Source: Phascolarctobacterium sp.
GTDB lineage: Bacteria; Bacillota; Negativicutes; Acidaminococcales; Acidaminococcaceae
Assembly: GCA_024405645.1 (NCBI GenBank)
Contig: JAKSOJ010000020.1
Location: 1 to 12,189 of the forward strand
Direction of reading: 5' to 3'
DNA: 12,189 nucleotides
Shown here piece by piece: positions 1,959 to 10,154 of this stretch; within the stretch, counting starts at the first letter, position 1, and the number at the start of each line of letters is the position of its first letter. Position numbers and translations under genes: made by a program. The notes beneath the pieces are model-generated. The model saw nothing but the letters and a program-made list of their open reading frames with translations. It did not search any database and had not been told where the DNA came from.

Positions 1959-3158
1959 TTATTGATTTGAAGGCTTTCGCAGTTCTGGAGCGGGCAAAAG
2001 ATCCTCCGCGTTTAGAAAAGTACCATCCGTAAAGTATAGACCTGTTACAATGAATTCGAAGGTACAATTATCTCCGTCCTTTTGCAAAATACCATTATCC
2101 CTAGAGAATATATAGCCTATATTGTCATACTTTTCCCACTCATGAATAATGGGATCGCCTAAGCGATAATTTGCCTTCTCATATTGCGAAGCCACATCTT
2201 CTATATAATGCAGTTCGCGTTGCGCAATTCTTCCTTTAGAGTTTCTGACAATGATGAGTCCTTCTATTTGGTTTATTTCTTTAGAGTTATCAAGAATACT
2301 GTAGCTAACCCTATAACGGAATTTATCCCAACCAAAATAGTTCTTACTTCTTATAAATTGCACGGAAGCATCTTTAGCAGCAACATATTTGCTCATCTCA
2401 AAATTAACTTCTGCATTTAACTCATCCAGCTTTTGCATGGCTAAAATATCTCTGAGCAAAACTGTTTCCAAGGCATTTGTAACAGAAACGGCTCGCCAAT
2501 ATTTACCGCCTTCCATAGGAATCATTCTAACATTAACGGTCAGGTCTGCATCTAGCTGCAAATCGCGAAAAACAACAGCAACTATTACCGCGCCGTCCTC
2601 TTTTTCGATAACATGGGCAGTTCTAAAACGCAAATATTTGAAGTTGATATGACGCTCAAAAAACTTATATTCTGGTTCGTCTGGAATTTTCCCTAATTCT
2701 AGAACGTCAAAAGCACTAATATCCAAAGTGATTTTCTTTTGTCCTATCTTACTATGGCCAGTTATAATCTTTCTATGGGTCTTATTCCTCTTATTGCTAT
2801 CATCCTGCTTTTTATGCTTGCCCTCTTCTATTTGCTTGCGAAGCTGAGCAGACAATTTTTTAACAGTATAATCCTTTAAACCAACTGCCAAACGACCGAC
2901 AGGAGTATCGGGGTCCAAGGTTTCTGCGCGAATTTGGTCATAAGCATCGCTATATACTGCTTCCAAATCGCAGTATTTATCAAACTGACGAAGGTCATGG
3001 TTTCTAAATGCGTCAAAAACCATATACGCCGAAAAATACGGTGTTCTCTTGAGTTTAAAATGATACACTCCGACTAAGCTAGCAATAATGCCAAAGAATA
3101 TTACAAAAGCTATGAGTATTTTCTTTTTATAGGAAGAACCTTTCTTTTTTTCTTCCAT
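1959..3158 (-). CDS. Membrane-anchored protein of unknown function (DUF2939-like), paralogue of the upstream gene
   Basis: This 399-residue protein has a lysine-rich N-terminus, one hydrophobic segment at about 13-33, and no further membrane segment. The bulk probably lies outside the cytoplasm. Residues about 39-77 (RTPYFSAY, FRNHDLRQFDKYCDLEAVYSDAYDQI) resemble the start of DUF2939 proteins, in which a short chain follows the membrane anchor; this is from memory and moderate. A very basic, low-complexity linker covers about 110-135, followed by ERHINFKYLRF near 168-178 and a C-terminal half rich in predicted strands with KGRIAQREL. The same motifs in the same order occur in the gene just upstream, so the two are tandem paralogues. 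It has a GAGGTGA ribosome site and lies 37 bases after its partner, probably co-transcribed. No catalytic motif was seen. Function is unknown. Confidence 0.75.
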   Translation of the reverse strand: MEEKKKGSSYKKKILIAFVIFFGIIASLVGVYHFKLKRTPYFSAYMVFDAFRNHDLRQFDKYCDLEAVYSDAYDQIRAETLDPDTPVGRLAVGLKDYTVKKLSAQLRKQIEEGKHKKQDDSNKRNKTHRKIITGHSKIGQKKITLDISAFDVLELGKIPDEPEYKFFERHINFKYLRFRTAHVIEKEDGAVIVAVVFRDLQLDADLTVNVRMIPMEGGKYWRAVSVTNALETVLLRDILAMQKLDELNAEVNFEMSKYVAAKDASVQFIRSKNYFGWDKFRYRVSYSILDNSKEINQIEGLIIVRNSKGRIAQRELHYIEDVASQYEKANYRLGDPIIHEWEKYDNIGYIFSRDNGILQKDGDNCTFEFIVTGLYFTDGTFLNAEDLLPAPELRKPSNQ

Positions 3159-3195: not shown

Positions 3196-4299
3196 TTATT
3201 TTTCCGGCACAGGTAAATCCTTCAAAGCCTCTAAAACCTTACCATCAGCGAGAACAAGTTTATTTAAAGCATATTGGCAAGTGTAGTTTTCTGCGCCCTT
3301 GGCAGCAATACCACGTTCACGACCCAAAATAGAGCCAAGCACATCTCTCTTAGTCCAGGTCTCTGTGAAAACTTTGTCAGAAGAATAACCAGCCTGAGCA
3401 TACTTAATAACCAAGCCAGTGATATTCAAATCTTCGCGTTGAGCAATTTGGCCTTGTTGATTCAGCATAATGAACTCGCCTTCAACCTCGGCGATTCTCT
3501 TGTTCTTATCTGGCAGGCAATAAGCAATTGTATAGGTAAATTTGCTGGTAGGAATGATTCCGCCACTCTTTTTAACTTCGGCTTTAGCATCCTTTACAAC
3601 GAAAAGTCTACCCATTTCGTCTCGAATTTGCTTATTAAAGCTAGCAAGCTTTTCCATTGCAGCTTTATCACGTTCAAGAGCAAGGTCAACGACGTTCATT
3701 ACTTGAGTAACCTTCCATTGACCATTGTCTTTAGGTTCCATTTTTAATTTAAGATAAAAGTCTTTATCTACTTGAATATCATGGAATTTGCCAGTTACGA
3801 TAGTGCTACCATCAGCTCTTTCAGTAGTAGTTACATCTTTGAAACGCATATATTTAAAATTCAAATGGCGTTCCATATATTTCTTTTGAGCTGCTTTAAC
3901 ATCATCGCTAATGTTTAAAATATCAAGAATATTGGTTTTCTTCTTTTCGGGCACAGTTTGATTTTGAGCATCAGCTACAGGATCTTGTTTTTTGCCAGCG
4001 ATAGCCTTGCGAGCTTGGTCGGACAATTTAGCAACAACGCTTCCCTTGATTCCACCAAATATTTGATCCAAGGTAGGATTCTTAGAAACTGTCTTCTCTG
4101 CAATTTGATCATAGGCATTGCCATAAACTGCTTCAATATCTACGTATTCTTCAAATTTAGCTACATTATGATTTTTAGCTCCGTCATAGGCTTGGTAAAT
4201 TGAATATGCAGGTGTTTTGGTAAAGATTAAGAAATAGTATCCTGCGCATGCAACCAAGCAAAAAACAACAGCTATTAAAAACATTAATTTTTTACTCAT
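3196..4299 (-). CDS. Membrane-anchored or lipoprotein-like protein of unknown function (DUF2939-like), first gene of pair
   Basis: This 367-residue product has a short basic N-terminus and a hydrophobic segment at about 4-26. LVAC at 15-18 fits a lipobox, but the following residues (AGYYFLIF) stay hydrophobic, so an uncleaved anchor is at least as likely. Residues about 28-67 (KTPAYSIY, GAKNHNVAKFEEYVDIEAVYGNAYDQI) match the DUF2939-like start of its neighbour. They are followed by a charged linker (about 103-122), MERHLNFKYMRF (142-153) and, in the C-terminal half, GQIAQREDL. The shared motif order shows that the two genes arose by duplication. A GGAG ribosome site precedes the ATG by six bases, and a possible promoter lies about 35 bases upstream. 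The protein probably faces the cell envelope. Function is unknown, and no enzymatic residues are apparent. Confidence 0.75.
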   Translation of the reverse strand: MSKKLMFLIAVVFCLVACAGYYFLIFTKTPAYSIYQAYDGAKNHNVAKFEEYVDIEAVYGNAYDQIAEKTVSKNPTLDQIFGGIKGSVVAKLSDQARKAIAGKKQDPVADAQNQTVPEKKKTNILDILNISDDVKAAQKKYMERHLNFKYMRFKDVTTTERADGSTIVTGKFHDIQVDKDFYLKLKMEPKDNGQWKVTQVMNVVDLALERDKAAMEKLASFNKQIRDEMGRLFVVKDAKAEVKKSGGIIPTSKFTYTIAYCLPDKNKRIAEVEGEFIMLNQQGQIAQREDLNITGLVIKYAQAGYSSDKVFTETWTKRDVLGSILGRERGIAAKGAENYTCQYALNKLVLADGKVLEALKDLPVPEK

Positions 4300-4363: not shown

Positions 4364-4402
4364 GAATAAAAAATCCCCGACTCGTTTTAGAATCAGGGAT
4401 TT
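4364..4402 (-). terminator. Terminator of the ribose operon
   Basis: On the minus strand AATCCC (from 4401) pairs with GGGATT (ending 4372). The inner part of the stem has two mismatches and a loop of about six bases. TTTTTATTC follows. It lies about 40 bases after the rbsK stop codon. Confidence 0.75.
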
Positions 4403-4440
4403 TAATGATTTTACTTAATCTTTTCAGAGCAAGTTAAATT

Positions 4441-5325
4441 TTATTTCAGAGCCTCTTCAACTTCTTTACGAAGAGGAATGGACGGAACTGCACCAGGACG
4501 AGTTACTGCGATGGAAGAAGCCTTCGCACTCATCTTGAGAACATCAGGAATAGCCATTCCTTCGGAAAGACCAGCTAAGAAATAACCAGTGAAGGTATCA
4601 CCAGCAGCAGTAGTATCCACTGCCTTAACCGGGAAAATCGGTTGATAGAATTCAGTATTGCCTTCAGCAAACATTGCTCCATCTTTACCAAGAGTAAGAA
4701 CAATCTTAGCCTTGGGGAACTTTTCTTTCATGCTAGCAATGATTTCCTTAGGATCAACCAAACCAGTGATTTGTCCACCTTCAATTTCATTCAGAAGGAA
4801 AATGCTAATCTTGGTCATATCTACTTCATTCAATTTTTCATTGAACGGAGACGGATTTAACGCGATTTGCATGCCCTTTTCATATGCTTTATCAACAATG
4901 TAACCAAGCATATTAACTTCGTTTTGCAGAAGCAGGATATCGCCAGTTTCAAAACCAGCTAAAACTTCATCAACATATTCAGCGGTTAATTTTTGGTTAG
5001 CACCACCATAGAGCAAAATGCAGTTTTGTGCATTCTTGTCAATTTGGATAATGGCATGGCCAGTGAATTCATCAATTTGACGAATGTAATCACCATTTAC
5101 GCCATGTTCCTTGCATGCGTCAAGGAAAACCAAACCATCGGGGCCAATCATACCAGCATGATAAATATTAGCACCAGCCTTTGCCAAAGCAACGGATTGG
5201 TTCATACCCTTGCCACCCAAGAAATTCTTGATTTCGTTAACTGCTTCGGTTTCGCCAGGAGCTACAATATGGTCCATCATGTAAACATGGTCAAGGTTCA
5301 TAGAACCGATACATAAAACTTTCAT
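4441..5325 (-). CDS. rbsK: Ribokinase
   Basis: This cytoplasmic PfkB-family kinase phosphorylates imported D-ribose at O5 with ATP, giving ribose 5-phosphate for the pentose phosphate pathway and nucleotide synthesis. The 294-residue protein has GSMNLD (7-12), the sugar-binding GGKGMNQ (37-43; usually GGKGANQ), NPSPF (157-161) and the PfkB signature DTTAAGDTF (237-245). D243 is the expected catalytic base, and A241 replaces a common glycine. A C-terminal AVTRPGAVPSIP segment is typical of ribokinase and supports ribose rather than another sugar. Length is close to E. coli RbsK (309). It is the last gene of the operon, 12 bases after rbsB with GAGGAG before its ATG, and is followed by a terminator. 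Confidence 0.93.
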   Translation of the reverse strand: MKVLCIGSMNLDHVYMMDHIVAPGETEAVNEIKNFLGGKGMNQSVALAKAGANIYHAGMIGPDGLVFLDACKEHGVNGDYIRQIDEFTGHAIIQIDKNAQNCILLYGGANQKLTAEYVDEVLAGFETGDILLLQNEVNMLGYIVDKAYEKGMQIALNPSPFNEKLNEVDMTKISIFLLNEIEGGQITGLVDPKEIIASMKEKFPKAKIVLTLGKDGAMFAEGNTEFYQPIFPVKAVDTTAAGDTFTGYFLAGLSEGMAIPDVLKMSAKASSIAVTRPGAVPSIPLRKEVEEALK

Positions 5326-5337
5326 ATTAGGCTCCTC

Positions 5338-7104
5338 TTATTTTGCGTTTTCTTTAGTAATCAAAGTTACTTCTACAGGAATAGAAGCAGGAATGGATTT
5401 ACCAGCCATGAGTTCTGCTGCATTAACAACAGCTTTTTCACCGATAAGAGCAGGTTGTTGAGCGATGGTTGCTGCCATACGACCAGCTTTTACTGCTGCT
5501 ACAGCATCGTCAGTTGCGTCAAAGCCTACAACCATAACCTTCTTGCCAGCACCTGCTACAGCTTCAACAGCACCAAGTGCCATTTCGTCGTTATGTGCAA
5601 ATACTGCTTGAATGTCGCCATTTGCTTGAAGAACGTTTTCCATTACGCTCATGCCTTTCGCACGATCGAAATCAGCGATTTGGCTTGCAGCAACTTTGAG
5701 TTTCTTGTCAGCGATGTTGTGGAAGCCCTTACCACGGTCGATGGTAGCAGATGCACCTTGTACGCCTTGGAGTTCAGCAACCTTAACGCCTTCGCCCATT
5801 TTCTTAACGATGTAATCTGTAGCCATTTCAGCACCCATTACGTTGTCGGAAGCGATTTGACAATCAATTTTTACGCCATTAACTGCACGGTCAACGGAGA
5901 TTACTTTTACGCCTTTAGCCATTGCAGCTTTAACTGCGCCGGTAACTGCATCAGAGTCAACAGGGTTTACGATAAGAACTTTTACGTTCTTTTGAACAAG
6001 GTCTTCGATATTGGATACTTGTTTAGTTACGTCGTTATTTGCATCAACAACGATGAGGTTGAGGCCTTTTTCTTTAGCAGCTTTTTTAGCGCCTTCAGCC
6101 AAGGTTACGAAGAAAGGATTGTTTTGAGTGGAAATAGACAGGCCAATGGAGCCTTCAACTTTCTTTTCAGCAGCTTTGTTAAAGGTATCAACATTGTCTT
6201 TGGTTACGAGGGTTACTTCTACAGGCATGGATTTAGGAATGGATTTGCCAGCCATAAGTTCGCATGCTTGGATAACAGCTTTTTCACCGATGAGAGCAGG
6301 TTGTTGAGCGATGGTTGCTGCCATACGACCAGCTTTTACTGCTGCTACAGCGTCATCAGTTGCGTCAAAGCCTACAACCATAACTTTTTTGCCAGCACCA
6401 GCAATTGCTTCTACAGCACCAAGTGCCATTTCGTCGTTGTGTGCAAATACTGCTTTGATATCGCCATTAGCTTGGAGTACGTTTTCCATTACTGCCATGC
6501 CTTTAGCACGGTCGAAATCAGCAATTTGGCTTGCAGCAACTTTGAGTTTTTTGTCAGCTACGTTATGGAAGCCCTTACCACGATCGATAGTAGCGGAAGC
6601 GCCTTGGATACCTTGAAGTTCTGCAACTTTAGCACCTTCGCCCATCAATTTAACAATATAATCGGTAGCCATTTGTGCACCCATTACGTTGTCGGAAGCG
6701 ATTTGGCAATCAATGTCAACGCCATTAACTGCACGGTCAACGGAGATTACTTTTACGCCTTTAGCTTTTGCAGCTTTAACTGCACCTGCTACAGCGTCGG
6801 AGTCAACAGGGTTTACGATAAGAACGCTAACATTCTTTTGAACCAAGTCTTCGATATTGGATACTTGTTTGGTAACATCATCACCAGCATCAACAACATG
6901 AAGTTGAACTTTTTTATCAGCAGCAGCTTTCTTTGCACCTTCAACCAAGGTTACGAAGAAAGGATTGTTTTGAGTGGAAATAGACAGGCCAATGGAACCA
7001 TTAGCTACAGTTTTGGTAGAAGTTTCTTCGCCATCAATAGTTACTCTGAACAAAGTTGCCATTACTACAATGATAGCGCAGAGAAGCATTAAGACTTTTT
7101 TCAT
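5338..7104 (-). CDS. rbsB: Tandem-duplicated ribose-binding protein (two RbsB domains in one chain)
   Basis: This is an exported solute-binding protein for the ribose ABC importer. At 588 residues it is about twice the length of E. coli RbsB (296). A basic, hydrophobic leader (residues 1-20) has no obvious AxA cleavage site or lipobox, so it may be cleaved or may stay as an anchor. Domain 1 covers about 36-306 and domain 2 about 318-588. A hand alignment shows roughly 30 differences in 271 positions, near 89% identity. Between them is only an 11-residue link (TFNKAAEKKVE) and no second signal. E. coli ligand residues have counterparts in domain 1 at S43, N47, F49, F50, N98, D123, R124, R175, F197, N223, D247 and Q267, and every one recurs 282 residues later in domain 2. 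Both halves should therefore bind ribose. GGGAGG precedes the ATG; the gene lies 21 bases after rbsC. Confidence 0.95.
   Translation of the reverse strand: MKKVLMLLCAIIVVMATLFRVTIDGEETSTKTVANGSIGLSISTQNNPFFVTLVEGAKKAAADKKVQLHVVDAGDDVTKQVSNIEDLVQKNVSVLIVNPVDSDAVAGAVKAAKAKGVKVISVDRAVNGVDIDCQIASDNVMGAQMATDYIVKLMGEGAKVAELQGIQGASATIDRGKGFHNVADKKLKVAASQIADFDRAKGMAVMENVLQANGDIKAVFAHNDEMALGAVEAIAGAGKKVMVVGFDATDDAVAAVKAGRMAATIAQQPALIGEKAVIQACELMAGKSIPKSMPVEVTLVTKDNVDTFNKAAEKKVEGSIGLSISTQNNPFFVTLAEGAKKAAKEKGLNLIVVDANNDVTKQVSNIEDLVQKNVKVLIVNPVDSDAVTGAVKAAMAKGVKVISVDRAVNGVKIDCQIASDNVMGAEMATDYIVKKMGEGVKVAELQGVQGASATIDRGKGFHNIADKKLKVAASQIADFDRAKGMSVMENVLQANGDIQAVFAHNDEMALGAVEAVAGAGKKVMVVGFDATDDAVAAVKAGRMAATIAQQPALIGEKAVVNAAELMAGKSIPASIPVEVTLITKENAK
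5341..6153 (-). repeat. Second copy of the intragenic 813 bp rbsB repeat
   Basis: This copy encodes residues 318-588 and repeats the stretch at 6187-6999 with an offset of 846 bp. Long runs are identical at DNA level, for instance around the VNPVDSD, SVDRAVNG and ATIAQQPALIGEKA codons. Synonymous and non-synonymous differences are scattered along the rest. Confidence 0.9.
6187..6999 (-). repeat. First copy of the intragenic 813 bp rbsB repeat
   Basis: This copy encodes residues 36-306 of the double binding protein. It is in the same orientation and reading frame as the copy at 5341-6153, separated from it by 33 bases. Most amino-acid differences cluster near residues 62-75, in the first third of the domain and away from the ligand residues. 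Confidence 0.9.
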
Positions 7105-7125: not shown

Positions 7126-8097
7126 TCACTTACGGTCGCTCAATACAGCAATCAGAATTACCAGAGCTTTGATAACTTCTTGATAGTAGGAAGTTACGCC
7201 CAAGATATTCAAGCCATTGTTTAAAACTGCAATAATCAAAACGCCAGCAACGGTACCAGCGATTTTGCCACGACCACCGTTCATGGAAGTACCACCAAGA
7301 GCAACAGCTGCGATTGCATCCAATTCGTAGCCAACGCCCAGGTTAGGTTGAGCAGAGTTTACACGGGAAATCATTAACAGACCAGCAAGTGCGGACATTA
7401 AACCAGAAATTGCATATACGCTCAATTTAACTTTGTTAATGTTTACACCAACCAAAGCTGCGCATTTTTCGTTGGAACCAGTTGCGTAAATGCGACGGCC
7501 ATAAGTAGTATAGTTAAGCAAGAAGTAGAAAGCAAAGAATACAGCAATAAGGATGATTGCAGGAATAGGAATCTTGATAGCATCGGTGAAGATACTTACC
7601 AGGTTACCTTTACCCATTGCCTTGAAGATGAAGGAACCGCTGGAGCAATGTTCAGCAAGACGGCTGATAGGTTTACCATCGGTTAAGATCATTGCCATGC
7701 CACGATAAGCAGTCATGGTAATCAAGGTTGCGATAAAGGGTTGCAAACGGCCTTTAGTAACGAGAAGACCGGATACGATACCAAGAACAGTGCCGCAAGC
7801 CAGAGCAAAGAGAACTGCTACCGGAGCAGGCAGTCCGTACATAATCATTTCTGCACAGATGATTGCAGACAATGCAAAGGTGGAGCCTACGGACAGGTCG
7901 ATACCACCAGTTAAAATTACGCAAGTCATACCAAAAGCGATAAGACCGTTAAAGCTTGCTTGACGAAGCAAGTTCAAGAAGTTACTTGCAGTTCTGAATT
8001 CAGGGCTAATTGCGCTGAGTGCCAAAACTAAGAAAATTAATGCTATGAAGGCGCCATATTCACCAATCTTGACGCCGCAAATTTTTTTATCTTTCAT
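7126..8097 (-). CDS. rbsC: Ribose ABC transporter permease
   Basis: RbsC forms the membrane channel of the ribose importer, a BPD_transp_2-type permease. The 323 residues are mostly hydrophobic, with eight or more membrane segments. Family hallmarks are MTCVILTGGIDLSVGS (around 57-72), KGRLQPFIATL (around 115-125), SAQPNLGVGYELDAIAAVALGGTSMNGGRG (around 248-277) and the C-terminal LNNGLNILGVTSYYQ. All closely resemble E. coli RbsC. The ATG at 8097 is preferred; its A is the last base of the rbsA stop codon (TGATG), so translation is probably coupled. A GTG at 8100 with AGGAGG six bases upstream is an equally placed alternative that adds one residue. It lies between rbsA and rbsB. Confidence 0.95.
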   Translation of the reverse strand: MKDKKICGVKIGEYGAFIALIFLVLALSAISPEFRTASNFLNLLRQASFNGLIAFGMTCVILTGGIDLSVGSTFALSAIICAEMIMYGLPAPVAVLFALACGTVLGIVSGLLVTKGRLQPFIATLITMTAYRGMAMILTDGKPISRLAEHCSSGSFIFKAMGKGNLVSIFTDAIKIPIPAIILIAVFFAFYFLLNYTTYGRRIYATGSNEKCAALVGVNINKVKLSVYAISGLMSALAGLLMISRVNSAQPNLGVGYELDAIAAVALGGTSMNGGRGKIAGTVAGVLIIAVLNNGLNILGVTSYYQEVIKALVILIAVLSDRK

Positions 8098-9581
8098 CAC
8101 AGACTTCCTCCTGTAGCTAATGTCATTACTTTTTGTTGGTCAGCTTCAGCACCATCGATGATGCCAGCAACCTGGCCGTCATGAATAACCATAACGCGGT
8201 CAGCCATACCAAGTACTTCCGGAAGCTCGGAGGATACCATAATTACAGCTACACCTTTTGCTGCCATATCATTAATAACATTGTAAATTTCTTTCTTTGC
8301 ACCAATATCTACGCCACGAGTAGGTTCATCCAAGATTAAAATCTTAGGATTGGTGTAAATCCATTTAGCAAGGACAACCTTTTGTTGGTTACCACCGGAA
8401 AGATTTACACATTCGTGGTCAGTACCAAAGCAACGAATCTTGAAGTCATCAATACCTGCTTGCGCAAGCTCGTTACTCTTCGCAAAGGAAACCACATTAT
8501 TTTCAGAAATTCTGTCAAGATTTGCAATTTCAATGTTTTCGCAAATGCTCTTTTCAAGAAGCAAGCCTTCAACCTTACGGTCTTCAGTGATAAAACCAAT
8601 GCCGGCTTGAATTGCTTGACGAGGATTAGCAATGGATACTTCCTTGCCATCAATGAAAACTTTACCAGTAACATTGGGCATATTGCCAAAGATTGCATGC
8701 ATGATTTCGGTACGACCAGCACCCATAAGGCCTGCTACGCCCAAAACCTCACCAGCACGAACATTGAAGTTTACATCTCTGAAAAGCTTAGGATGATTAA
8801 GATTTTCTACACGGAAGATTTCTTCGCCAATTTTATGTTCACGTTTCGGGAAACGTTCACCAATCTCACGACCAATCATCATTTGCACGATTTCTTCCAT
8901 GGTAACGGTCTTCATGTCACGAGTACCAACATACTCGCCATCACGAAGGATGGAAATTCTATCGCAAAGCTCAAAAAGTTCTTCCATACGGTGGGAAATG
9001 TAAACGATGGATACGCCTTTAGCACGAAGTCCTTTAACAACCTCAAACAAAGTTCTAGTTTCACTTTGAGTAAGTGCTGCAGTAGGTTCGTCCATGATTA
9101 ATACTTTGGCATCAACCATGAGAGCTTTCGCAATTTCTACCATTTGTTGTTGACCAACGGATAAGTCGGACATTACTGCATCAACAGGAATGTTTACACC
9201 GAGTTTGTCCATTACGTCTTGTGCTTGCTTACGCATAGCGGCTTTATCACAGATACCAAAGGGGCCAACAATTTCCTTGCCCATGAACATATTTTCTTCA
9301 ACAGTCATATCGAAGAGTACGTTCAATTCTTGGTAAATGAAGACAATGCCTGCTTTTTCTGCTTCTTGAGGATTGTTGTAGACAACTTCCTTACCATCTA
9401 CAAAAACCTTACCAGCATCACGAGTATAAACACCGGTTAAAATCTTCATCATTGTAGATTTACCGGAGCCGTTTTCTCCCATCAGCGCATGTATTTCGCC
9501 ATCGCGGAGGGAGAACTCAACATTCTTCAGCACCTGATTTGTCCCGAAGGATTTATCGATGCCCTTCATCTCTACATTCAC
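8097..9581 (-). CDS. rbsA: Ribose ABC transporter ATP-binding protein (double NBD)
   Basis: RbsA powers ribose import at the cytoplasmic face of RbsC. It has 494 residues when started at the GTG at 9581. The N-terminal ATPase domain has Walker A GENGSGKST (35-43), signature LSVGQQQ (140-146), Walker B VLIMDEP (160-166) and the switch SHR (196-198). The C-terminal domain has GLMGAGRTE (284-292), where arginine replaces the Walker A lysine. It also has signature LSGGNQQ (394-400) and ILILDEP (414-420), and lacks the switch histidine (SSELPE). Such asymmetry is normal in the RbsA/MglA family. The GTG start gives MNVEMKGIDKSFG, matching the start of E. coli RbsA, with AGGAG nine bases upstream and 17 bases after rbsD. 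An in-frame TTG at 9614 would overlap rbsD and leave the ribosome site inside the gene. Confidence 0.95.
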   Translation of the reverse strand: MNVEMKGIDKSFGTNQVLKNVEFSLRDGEIHALMGENGSGKSTMMKILTGVYTRDAGKVFVDGKEVVYNNPQEAEKAGIVFIYQELNVLFDMTVEENMFMGKEIVGPFGICDKAAMRKQAQDVMDKLGVNIPVDAVMSDLSVGQQQMVEIAKALMVDAKVLIMDEPTAALTQSETRTLFEVVKGLRAKGVSIVYISHRMEELFELCDRISILRDGEYVGTRDMKTVTMEEIVQMMIGREIGERFPKREHKIGEEIFRVENLNHPKLFRDVNFNVRAGEVLGVAGLMGAGRTEIMHAIFGNMPNVTGKVFIDGKEVSIANPRQAIQAGIGFITEDRKVEGLLLEKSICENIEIANLDRISENNVVSFAKSNELAQAGIDDFKIRCFGTDHECVNLSGGNQQKVVLAKWIYTNPKILILDEPTRGVDIGAKKEIYNVINDMAAKGVAVIMVSSELPEVLGMADRVMVIHDGQVAGIIDGAEADQQKVMTLATGGSL

Positions 9582-9598
9582 AGTAGCCTTCTCCTCTC

Positions 9599-10003
9599 TT
9601 AAGCGAAAATACAACCGGATTGTAAAATAATATTTGCATACGGAGTGGTTTCGCCAGTTCTAATTACAGCTTTGCAATCTTTGGTCAAAGCTTTTAATTC
9701 AACATGAGAAACAAATTCTACTTCGATTTCTTGGCCTTCAAAAAGGCTGTTGATTTCACCTAAAACCGCAGGGTTAAAGGTTTTGATTTCTTCAGCTAAG
9801 ATAATCTTTTCGATTTTCATATCTTCAGCAACGATTTTCAAAGTTTGCATAAAGCCAGGCACACCAAAAGCTAAAGCCAAATCGATGCGTTCGGTTTCGT
9901 CAGGAATGGGAAGACCACAGTCACCTACGCAAATACGGTCTGTATGTCCCATATAAGACAACACACGAGAAATGTCGCTGTTCAAGATTCCTTTCCTCTT
10001 CAT
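9599..10003 (-). CDS. rbsD: D-ribose pyranase
   Basis: RbsD interconverts the beta-pyranose and beta-furanose forms of D-ribose in the cytoplasm, supplying the form used by ribokinase. The 134-residue protein has MKRKGILNSDISRVLSYMGHTD with the catalytic His at position 20. It also has GDCGLPIP and, near the end, KAVIRTGETTPYANIILQSG, all as in B. subtilis RbsD (about 131 residues). The ATG at 10003 is chosen because AGGAGG lies just upstream. The frame stays open to 10066, but that extension has no ribosome site and does not belong to the family. It is the first gene of the operon. Confidence 0.96.
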   Translation of the reverse strand: MKRKGILNSDISRVLSYMGHTDRICVGDCGLPIPDETERIDLALAFGVPGFMQTLKIVAEDMKIEKIILAEEIKTFNPAVLGEINSLFEGQEIEVEFVSHVELKALTKDCKAVIRTGETTPYANIILQSGCIFA

Positions 10004-10081
10004 TTTATCCCTCCTAATCCTTCCATTTATCAAAATTTTAATTTTTACTACGAAAAAGTATAGCATGCATACATCTGTAAA

Positions 10082-10124: not shown

Positions 10125-10154
10125 ATTATATCAGTAAAGTATGCGATATTTCAA
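10125..10154 (-). promoter_or_regulatory. Main promoter of the rbs operon
   Basis: TTGAAA (10149-10154) and TATAAT (10125-10130) on the minus strand are separated by 18 bases. The expected start near 10118 gives a leader of about 115 bases before rbsD. It is about 80 bases from the divergent promoter of the Mrp gene. Confidence 0.7.

Follow-up and report, generated by a model that had tools for sequence, protein, structure and literature searches.

The rbs operon of a Phascolarctobacterium sp. raises the question of why a ribose receptor should be encoded twice over within a single gene, rbsB. The window, i.e. the whole stretch of DNA analysed, comprises 12,189 nucleotides (contig JAKSOJ010000020.1 of GenBank assembly GCA_024405645.1) and is contig 113 of a draft genome of 1.4 Mb that is 73% complete. 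A sequence-only reading had proposed that this gene encodes two complete RbsB domains behind a single export signal, joined by 11 residues and both retaining their ligand contacts, in a chain that stands free of the permease and was not known as described. The answer favoured here, with moderate confidence, is a tandem ribose receptor, free of the permease, in which both domains have the same specificity and would act as an array serving one RbsA/RbsC transporter.

Two receptor domains in one free-standing chain

The two complete domains are borne out by the Peripla_BP_4 profile (PF13407), which finds two matches in the rbsB chain (207.7 and 198.9 bits; cut-off, 35.1), and by the identity of 241 of 271 residues between them; the linker has the proposed 11 residues (Table 1). 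RbsB is the top NCBIfam family for the whole chain as well as for each domain alone, and a Foldseek comparison against the PDB ranks RbsB chains first (best 50 of 1557 matches), with 45-55% identity to the window protein in the top 13 fold matches. The RbsB structures of E. coli (2dri/1urp), Thermoanaerobacter (2ioy) and Streptococcus agalactiae (7e7m) share the fold and the contact residues. However, all of these best 50 chains are of single-domain length (270-315 residues), whereas the window protein has two domains. Its AlphaFold model shows two well-folded domains whose mutual placement is undefined (mean predicted local distance difference test score, pLDDT, 83; predicted template modelling score, pTM, 0.48), and pLDDT falls below 50 at residues 1-34 and at 311-316 inside the linker.

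With numbering transferred by alignment to E. coli RbsB (1urp), domain 1 keeps 17 of 17 pocket positions, which we take to be ribose-contact sites, and domain 2 keeps 16, the sole exception being I132V; the ligand contacts are thus conserved in both domains but for one change. Three protein searches, which had 3898, 2768 and 2426 matches and of which the best 120 each were listed, yielded 261 distinct proteins, the window's own protein P0059 among them, and 11 residues, presumably the key ribose contacts, are all intact in 623 of their 627 domains. This is the chief ground for expecting each copy to bind ribose.

Could the repeat be a stretch of contig duplicated during assembly? The gene is seen only in draft metagenome-assembled genomes (MAGs) and its repeats are similar, both of which would suit an artefact. 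Nevertheless, the domains differ at 122 of 813 bases (691 identical; 60 silent and 30 replacement codon differences) and the longest identical run between them is 59 bases. Furthermore, a sister genome of the same genus (G006) carries a 589-residue double RbsB, 93% identical, in the same operon and between the same neighbours, namely mrp (94% identical) and a DUF2939-like gene (69-70%), and many database entries have repeated domains. The base differences and the sister gene argue that the double gene is no artefact, which is considered extremely improbable. Among three other regions of the genus that were fetched around mrp (G001, G002 and G005), only that of G002 also contains mscL, and in it ORFs (open reading frames) named by eye as tyrosyl-tRNA-synthetase-like and transporter-like lie between the two instead.

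The nearest known systems to the double RbsB are GlnPQ and OpuA, the latter carrying one binding domain per chain of a dimer. The binding domains of the window protein are not fused to a transmembrane subunit as in these importers, rbsB and rbsC being separate ORFs, and the description of a free-standing duplicated receptor within an rbs operon stands. The tandem binding domains on one GlnPQ chain are reported to compete for docking on one translocator (PMC8025302); they are fused to the transmembrane domain and differ in specificity, whereas the window protein is encoded apart from RbsC and has near-identical domains. In OpuA, two tethered binding domains per transporter are reported to meet each other at millimolar concentration (PMC11065425). 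Among the open-licence PMC papers listed in literature searches, none describes a double or tandem RbsB in its title or the start of its abstract. To that extent the supposed novelty holds, but as a singular oddity it does not, since the protein database contains many double and triple chains.

A different pairing occurs in another Negativicute (locus L012, 1441-3315, minus strand), whose 624-residue secreted chain, read by eye, also joins two binding-protein-like Peripla_BP_4 domains. It is about 31% identical to the window protein, its halves are unlike each other, and it adjoins a response-regulator-like ORF, so that it is perhaps sensory. In 16 of 380 genomes of the class, frames 622-657 residues long match the query across its two domains at 29-33% identity, L012 alone having been read in detail.

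Distribution of multi-domain receptors and origin of the operon

Script-made counts of RbsB start motifs gave two in 155 of the 261 listed proteins, three in 104, four in one (P0121, 1172 residues) and one in one; single-domain RbsB is under-represented here because chains shorter than 0.55 of the query length were excluded as candidates. Some of the double and triple chains are named by their sources simply ribose-binding protein or RbsB. The set divides into 142 clostridial-type proteins, so labelled by similarity to named loci as the database gives no taxon, and 119 of Chloroflexota type (P0060-P0075, 43-48% identical to the window, and P0159-P0261), three of which carry organism names (Anaerolineales, Chloroflexota and Anaerolineae). 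In a tree of selected domains 19 domains from eight Chloroflexota-type proteins form one clade (support 98) apart from 43 others, which fits separate origins of the Chloroflexota- and clostridial-type multi-domain receptors, though losses may also account for it. A single clade of all multi-domain rows was rejected by the approximately unbiased (AU) test (p-AU 0.002; 42 rows versus 20, selected).

A genome scan found 181 relatives, of which 80 were kept as loci: 21 hold complete two-domain genes, three complete three-domain genes, seven genes cut by a contig end and 48 single-domain genes, while one (L071) was excluded because the script had picked a LacI-type frame. The record titles of 14 of the 24 complete multi-domain genes refer to deer, goat, sheep, cattle or water-buffalo gut, and all ten records not titled MAG have single-domain genes. 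One-, two- and three-domain versions are seen with the same operon partners. Across the class, the double of the window was met in two of 380 genomes, those of the window and its sister, under a strict threshold with at most three candidates scored per genome. Overall, the repeated receptors suggest that some bacteria multiply a transport receptor within a single protein.

The operon itself was probably acquired by the lineage of the window, as its proteins share 66-85% identity with their counterparts in clostridial multi-domain loci and only about 45-52% with the native RbsB, RbsC and part of RbsA of its own family (the extent of the stretches fetched). In the RbsC tree the window falls among clostridial genes (support 99), the nearest row outside the genus being a Fibrobacter MAG. 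The AU test nonetheless allows the window RbsC to group with native Negativicutes (p 0.21), so that any donor or direction of transfer would be tentative. Inheritance of the whole operon by descent was also considered; it is unlikely by the identities and is still compatible with that grouping for RbsC.

The Fibrobacter MAG (L064, 6001-6924) has a clostridial-type single-domain rbs operon, possibly through contamination. It is sister to the window RbsB domains (support 97) as well as nearest in RbsC; measured along the path of the tree, L034 is the closest RbsB row beyond the genus.

Silent sites and the competing explanations

At four-fold degenerate sites the two domains of one gene mismatch at 0.27 in the window and 0.22 in the sister, as against 0.47 for the same domain compared between the two genomes, a value resembling those of RbsA (0.46), RbsC (0.49) and RbsK (0.58); in the sister gene the domains share an identical run of 272 bases. 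Between window and sister 27 four-fold sites are genome-specific where 11.2 are expected (none of 2000 shuffles reached 27), three are domain-specific where 8.5 are expected, and one is crossed. This pattern points to recombination that makes the two domains of each species alike. The duplication would predate the split of window and sister, because among all base sites (52 genome-specific) 27 are domain-specific in both species and only four crossed. Codon bias was tried as the source of the likeness and appears insufficient, since shuffled codon usage predicts within-gene mismatches of 0.48 and 0.61, in a shuffle that ignores shared ancestry.

In the domain tree, copies cluster by lineage more than by position, and the tandem domains of RbsB seem to undergo concerted evolution. 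A single ancient duplication, which would unite all first domains as a clade, was rejected (p-AU 0.0003; 20 rows versus 22, selected genes). Among the other groups L035/L036 resemble window and sister in their pattern, as do L037/L039/L052 less clearly, and the picture is mixed in L038/L040/L046 and L042/L047/L053. The group L043/L044/L048/L051/L059 shows no recent homogenisation, its divergence at the same position (0.05-0.27) mostly not exceeding that within genes (0.24-0.32).

Several observations weigh against an array of equivalent domains or limit its generality. The isolated domains score 299.5 and 316.9 bits, below the NCBIfam RbsB equivalog cut-off of 337, and the whole chain reaches 610.7 bits only through the sum of the two; all 24 complete multi-domain genes in named genomes come from MAGs; and some clostridial groups show little or no signal of homogenisation. 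In addition, close relatives vary in copy number (L046 has two copies, L038 and L040 have three), and this, together with the 48 single-domain loci, implies that the extra copy is evolutionarily dispensable. Such changes would be expected if the array were a near-neutral by-product, with unequal recombination adding and removing tandem copies and conversion keeping them intact without benefit. Single-domain genes are interspersed among multi-domain ones, and the domain tree, in which 127 of 134 rows are labelled, shows at least five changes between the two states. However, the near-complete conservation of contact residues, the existence of two separate groups and the persistence of the double from a time before two species diverged whose four-fold sites now differ at about 0.47 all speak against this, and a near-neutral origin is judged quite improbable.

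The remaining counter-evidence comes from the amino acids, for which 13 sites are domain-specific in both species and three genome-specific, the opposite of the four-fold silent sites. The persistence of these residues, some of them amid homogenised silent sites, favours specialised domains that share a ligand and differ in affinity or in docking on RbsC, widening the usable concentration range in a manner comparable to GlnPQ. Sites 58, 71 and 78 fall within residues 46-90, a stretch with nine genome-specific silent sites and no domain-specific ones. On the other hand, nine of the 13 fall in residues 19-45 and 256-271, stretches that offer too few silent sites for recombination to be judged, the pockets agree at 16 of 17 positions, and the family-wide clustering is by lineage. 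Specialisation is thus regarded as rather unlikely, and two domains of the same specificity remain the preferred reading.

Anchoring, operon context and a possible receptor array

The single export signal of the sequence-only reading holds in part: an N-terminal hydrophobic stretch is present, but it is unusual in having Phe19 (TTC) in place of the lipobox cysteine. The sister gene has the same residue, so that neither RbsB carries the cysteine by which bacterial lipoproteins are recognised, which is nearly invariant in aligned relatives. AlphaFold places a helix at residues 2-17, within the segment of low pLDDT. In both proteins V-M-A or A-M-A ends three residues before Phe19 and could serve signal peptidase I. 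By a crude pattern script, which is not a signal-peptide predictor, a lipobox is found in 139 of the 142 clostridial-type proteins, the others being the window's own, P0129 (without a normal start) and P0141 (whose cysteine misses the strict pattern). The 119 Chloroflexota-type proteins comprise 48 with a lipobox, 66 with a membrane-helix-like N-terminus and five with neither, and by these patterns most multi-domain relatives would be membrane-tethered. Several Chloroflexota-type triples, P0061 and P0070 among them, have a Pro/Glu-rich N-terminal tail followed by a membrane-helix-like stretch, and no lipobox. Negativicutes are a diderm lineage; loss of the lipobox is no rule of diderms, as six other genomes of the order, five of them from the family, each retain the cysteine in their native RbsB.

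The five rbs genes lie adjacent on the minus strand, as befits a CUT2-type ribose ABC importer operon, in the order rbsD-rbsA-rbsC-rbsB-rbsK, which recurs in those clostridial multi-domain loci that hold all five. Ribokinase is the top NCBIfam match of rbsK, below its cut-off (231.3 versus 299.65). The true start of rbsD may lie inside the annotated ORF because the RbsD_FucU match begins at residue 22. A putative ribosome-binding sequence, GGGAGG, was read by eye upstream of rbsB. Promoter-like sites number 13 in the region where 13.8 are expected by chance, and terminator-like sites ten where 5.5 are expected.

Table 1. Features of the rbs operon in the window
Feature	Position	Strand	Basis
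rbsB, 588 aa, two tandem RbsB domains	5338..7104	minus	ORF and Pfam
N-terminal segment, aa 1-35 (hydrophobic stretch and lead)	7000..7104	minus	alignment, AlphaFold model
RbsB domain 1, aa 36-306	6187..6999	minus	domain alignment
Linker, 11 residues, aa 307-317	6154..6186	minus	domain alignment, AlphaFold model
RbsB domain 2, aa 318-588	5341..6153	minus	domain alignment
rbsC, permease	7126..8100	minus	BPD_transp_2 match
rbsA, ATPase with two ABC_tran stretches	8097..9614	minus	profile match
rbsD, D-ribose pyranase	9599..10066	minus	RbsD_FucU match
rbsK, PfkB-type kinase	4441..5325	minus	profile match
Promoter-like site upstream of rbsD, 11/12 matches, TG before second hexamer	10125..10154	minus	consensus match
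Terminator-like hairpin of 14 pairs with a T-rich tail, downstream of rbsK	4370..4403	minus	consensus match

A LacI-type regulator was not matched in the genome of the window (73% complete) or the sister (92% complete), by a search positive in nine of 14 control genomes; in the clostridial double-rbsB locus L036 an upstream ORF (2053-3087) reads by eye as such a regulator. Beyond the operon, window positions 1959-3158 and 3196-4299 (minus strand) hold adjoining paralogues that are 36% identical over most of their length and, by eye, have a hydrophobic stretch in the N-terminal part. One of them matches DUF2939 at 23.4 bits, just under the cut-off of 24.8, and the pair finds a match in 47 of 59 genomes of the family, its own included.

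It is proposed that each RbsB domain, on a short flexible linker, would capture one ribose independently and that the two would take turns in delivering it to the one RbsA/RbsC translocator, simultaneous double docking being unnecessary. Duplication within the ORF would double, and elsewhere triple or quadruple, the number of receptor sites for each polypeptide and each mRNA, as well as for each membrane anchor in most relatives, so that more domains per chain could supply more receptors without extra anchors or stronger translation; a higher local receptor concentration is a plausible consequence. Recombination between repeats would keep the copies alike and let their number change. The operon would probably have come from gut Clostridia, either directly or by way of another recipient, and the lipobox would have been lost in the diderm lineage through a Cys-to-Phe change. 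More broadly, it is conceivable, if doubtful, that the family represents an evolvable receptor array whose copy number of one to four is set by recombination and raises the receptor:translocator ratio on fixed anchors, which arose separately in Clostridia and Chloroflexota and whose lipid anchor was released after transfer into a diderm, since the periplasm, its presumed final location, confines the array.

The reasons why ABC importers differ so widely in receptor:translocator ratio are difficult to test, since receptor number, anchoring and expression vary jointly. The natural one-, two-, three- and four-domain versions of a single receptor pull these variables apart and provide a ready-made test series, and the family adds a bacterial example of domains inside a single protein whose evolution appears concerted.
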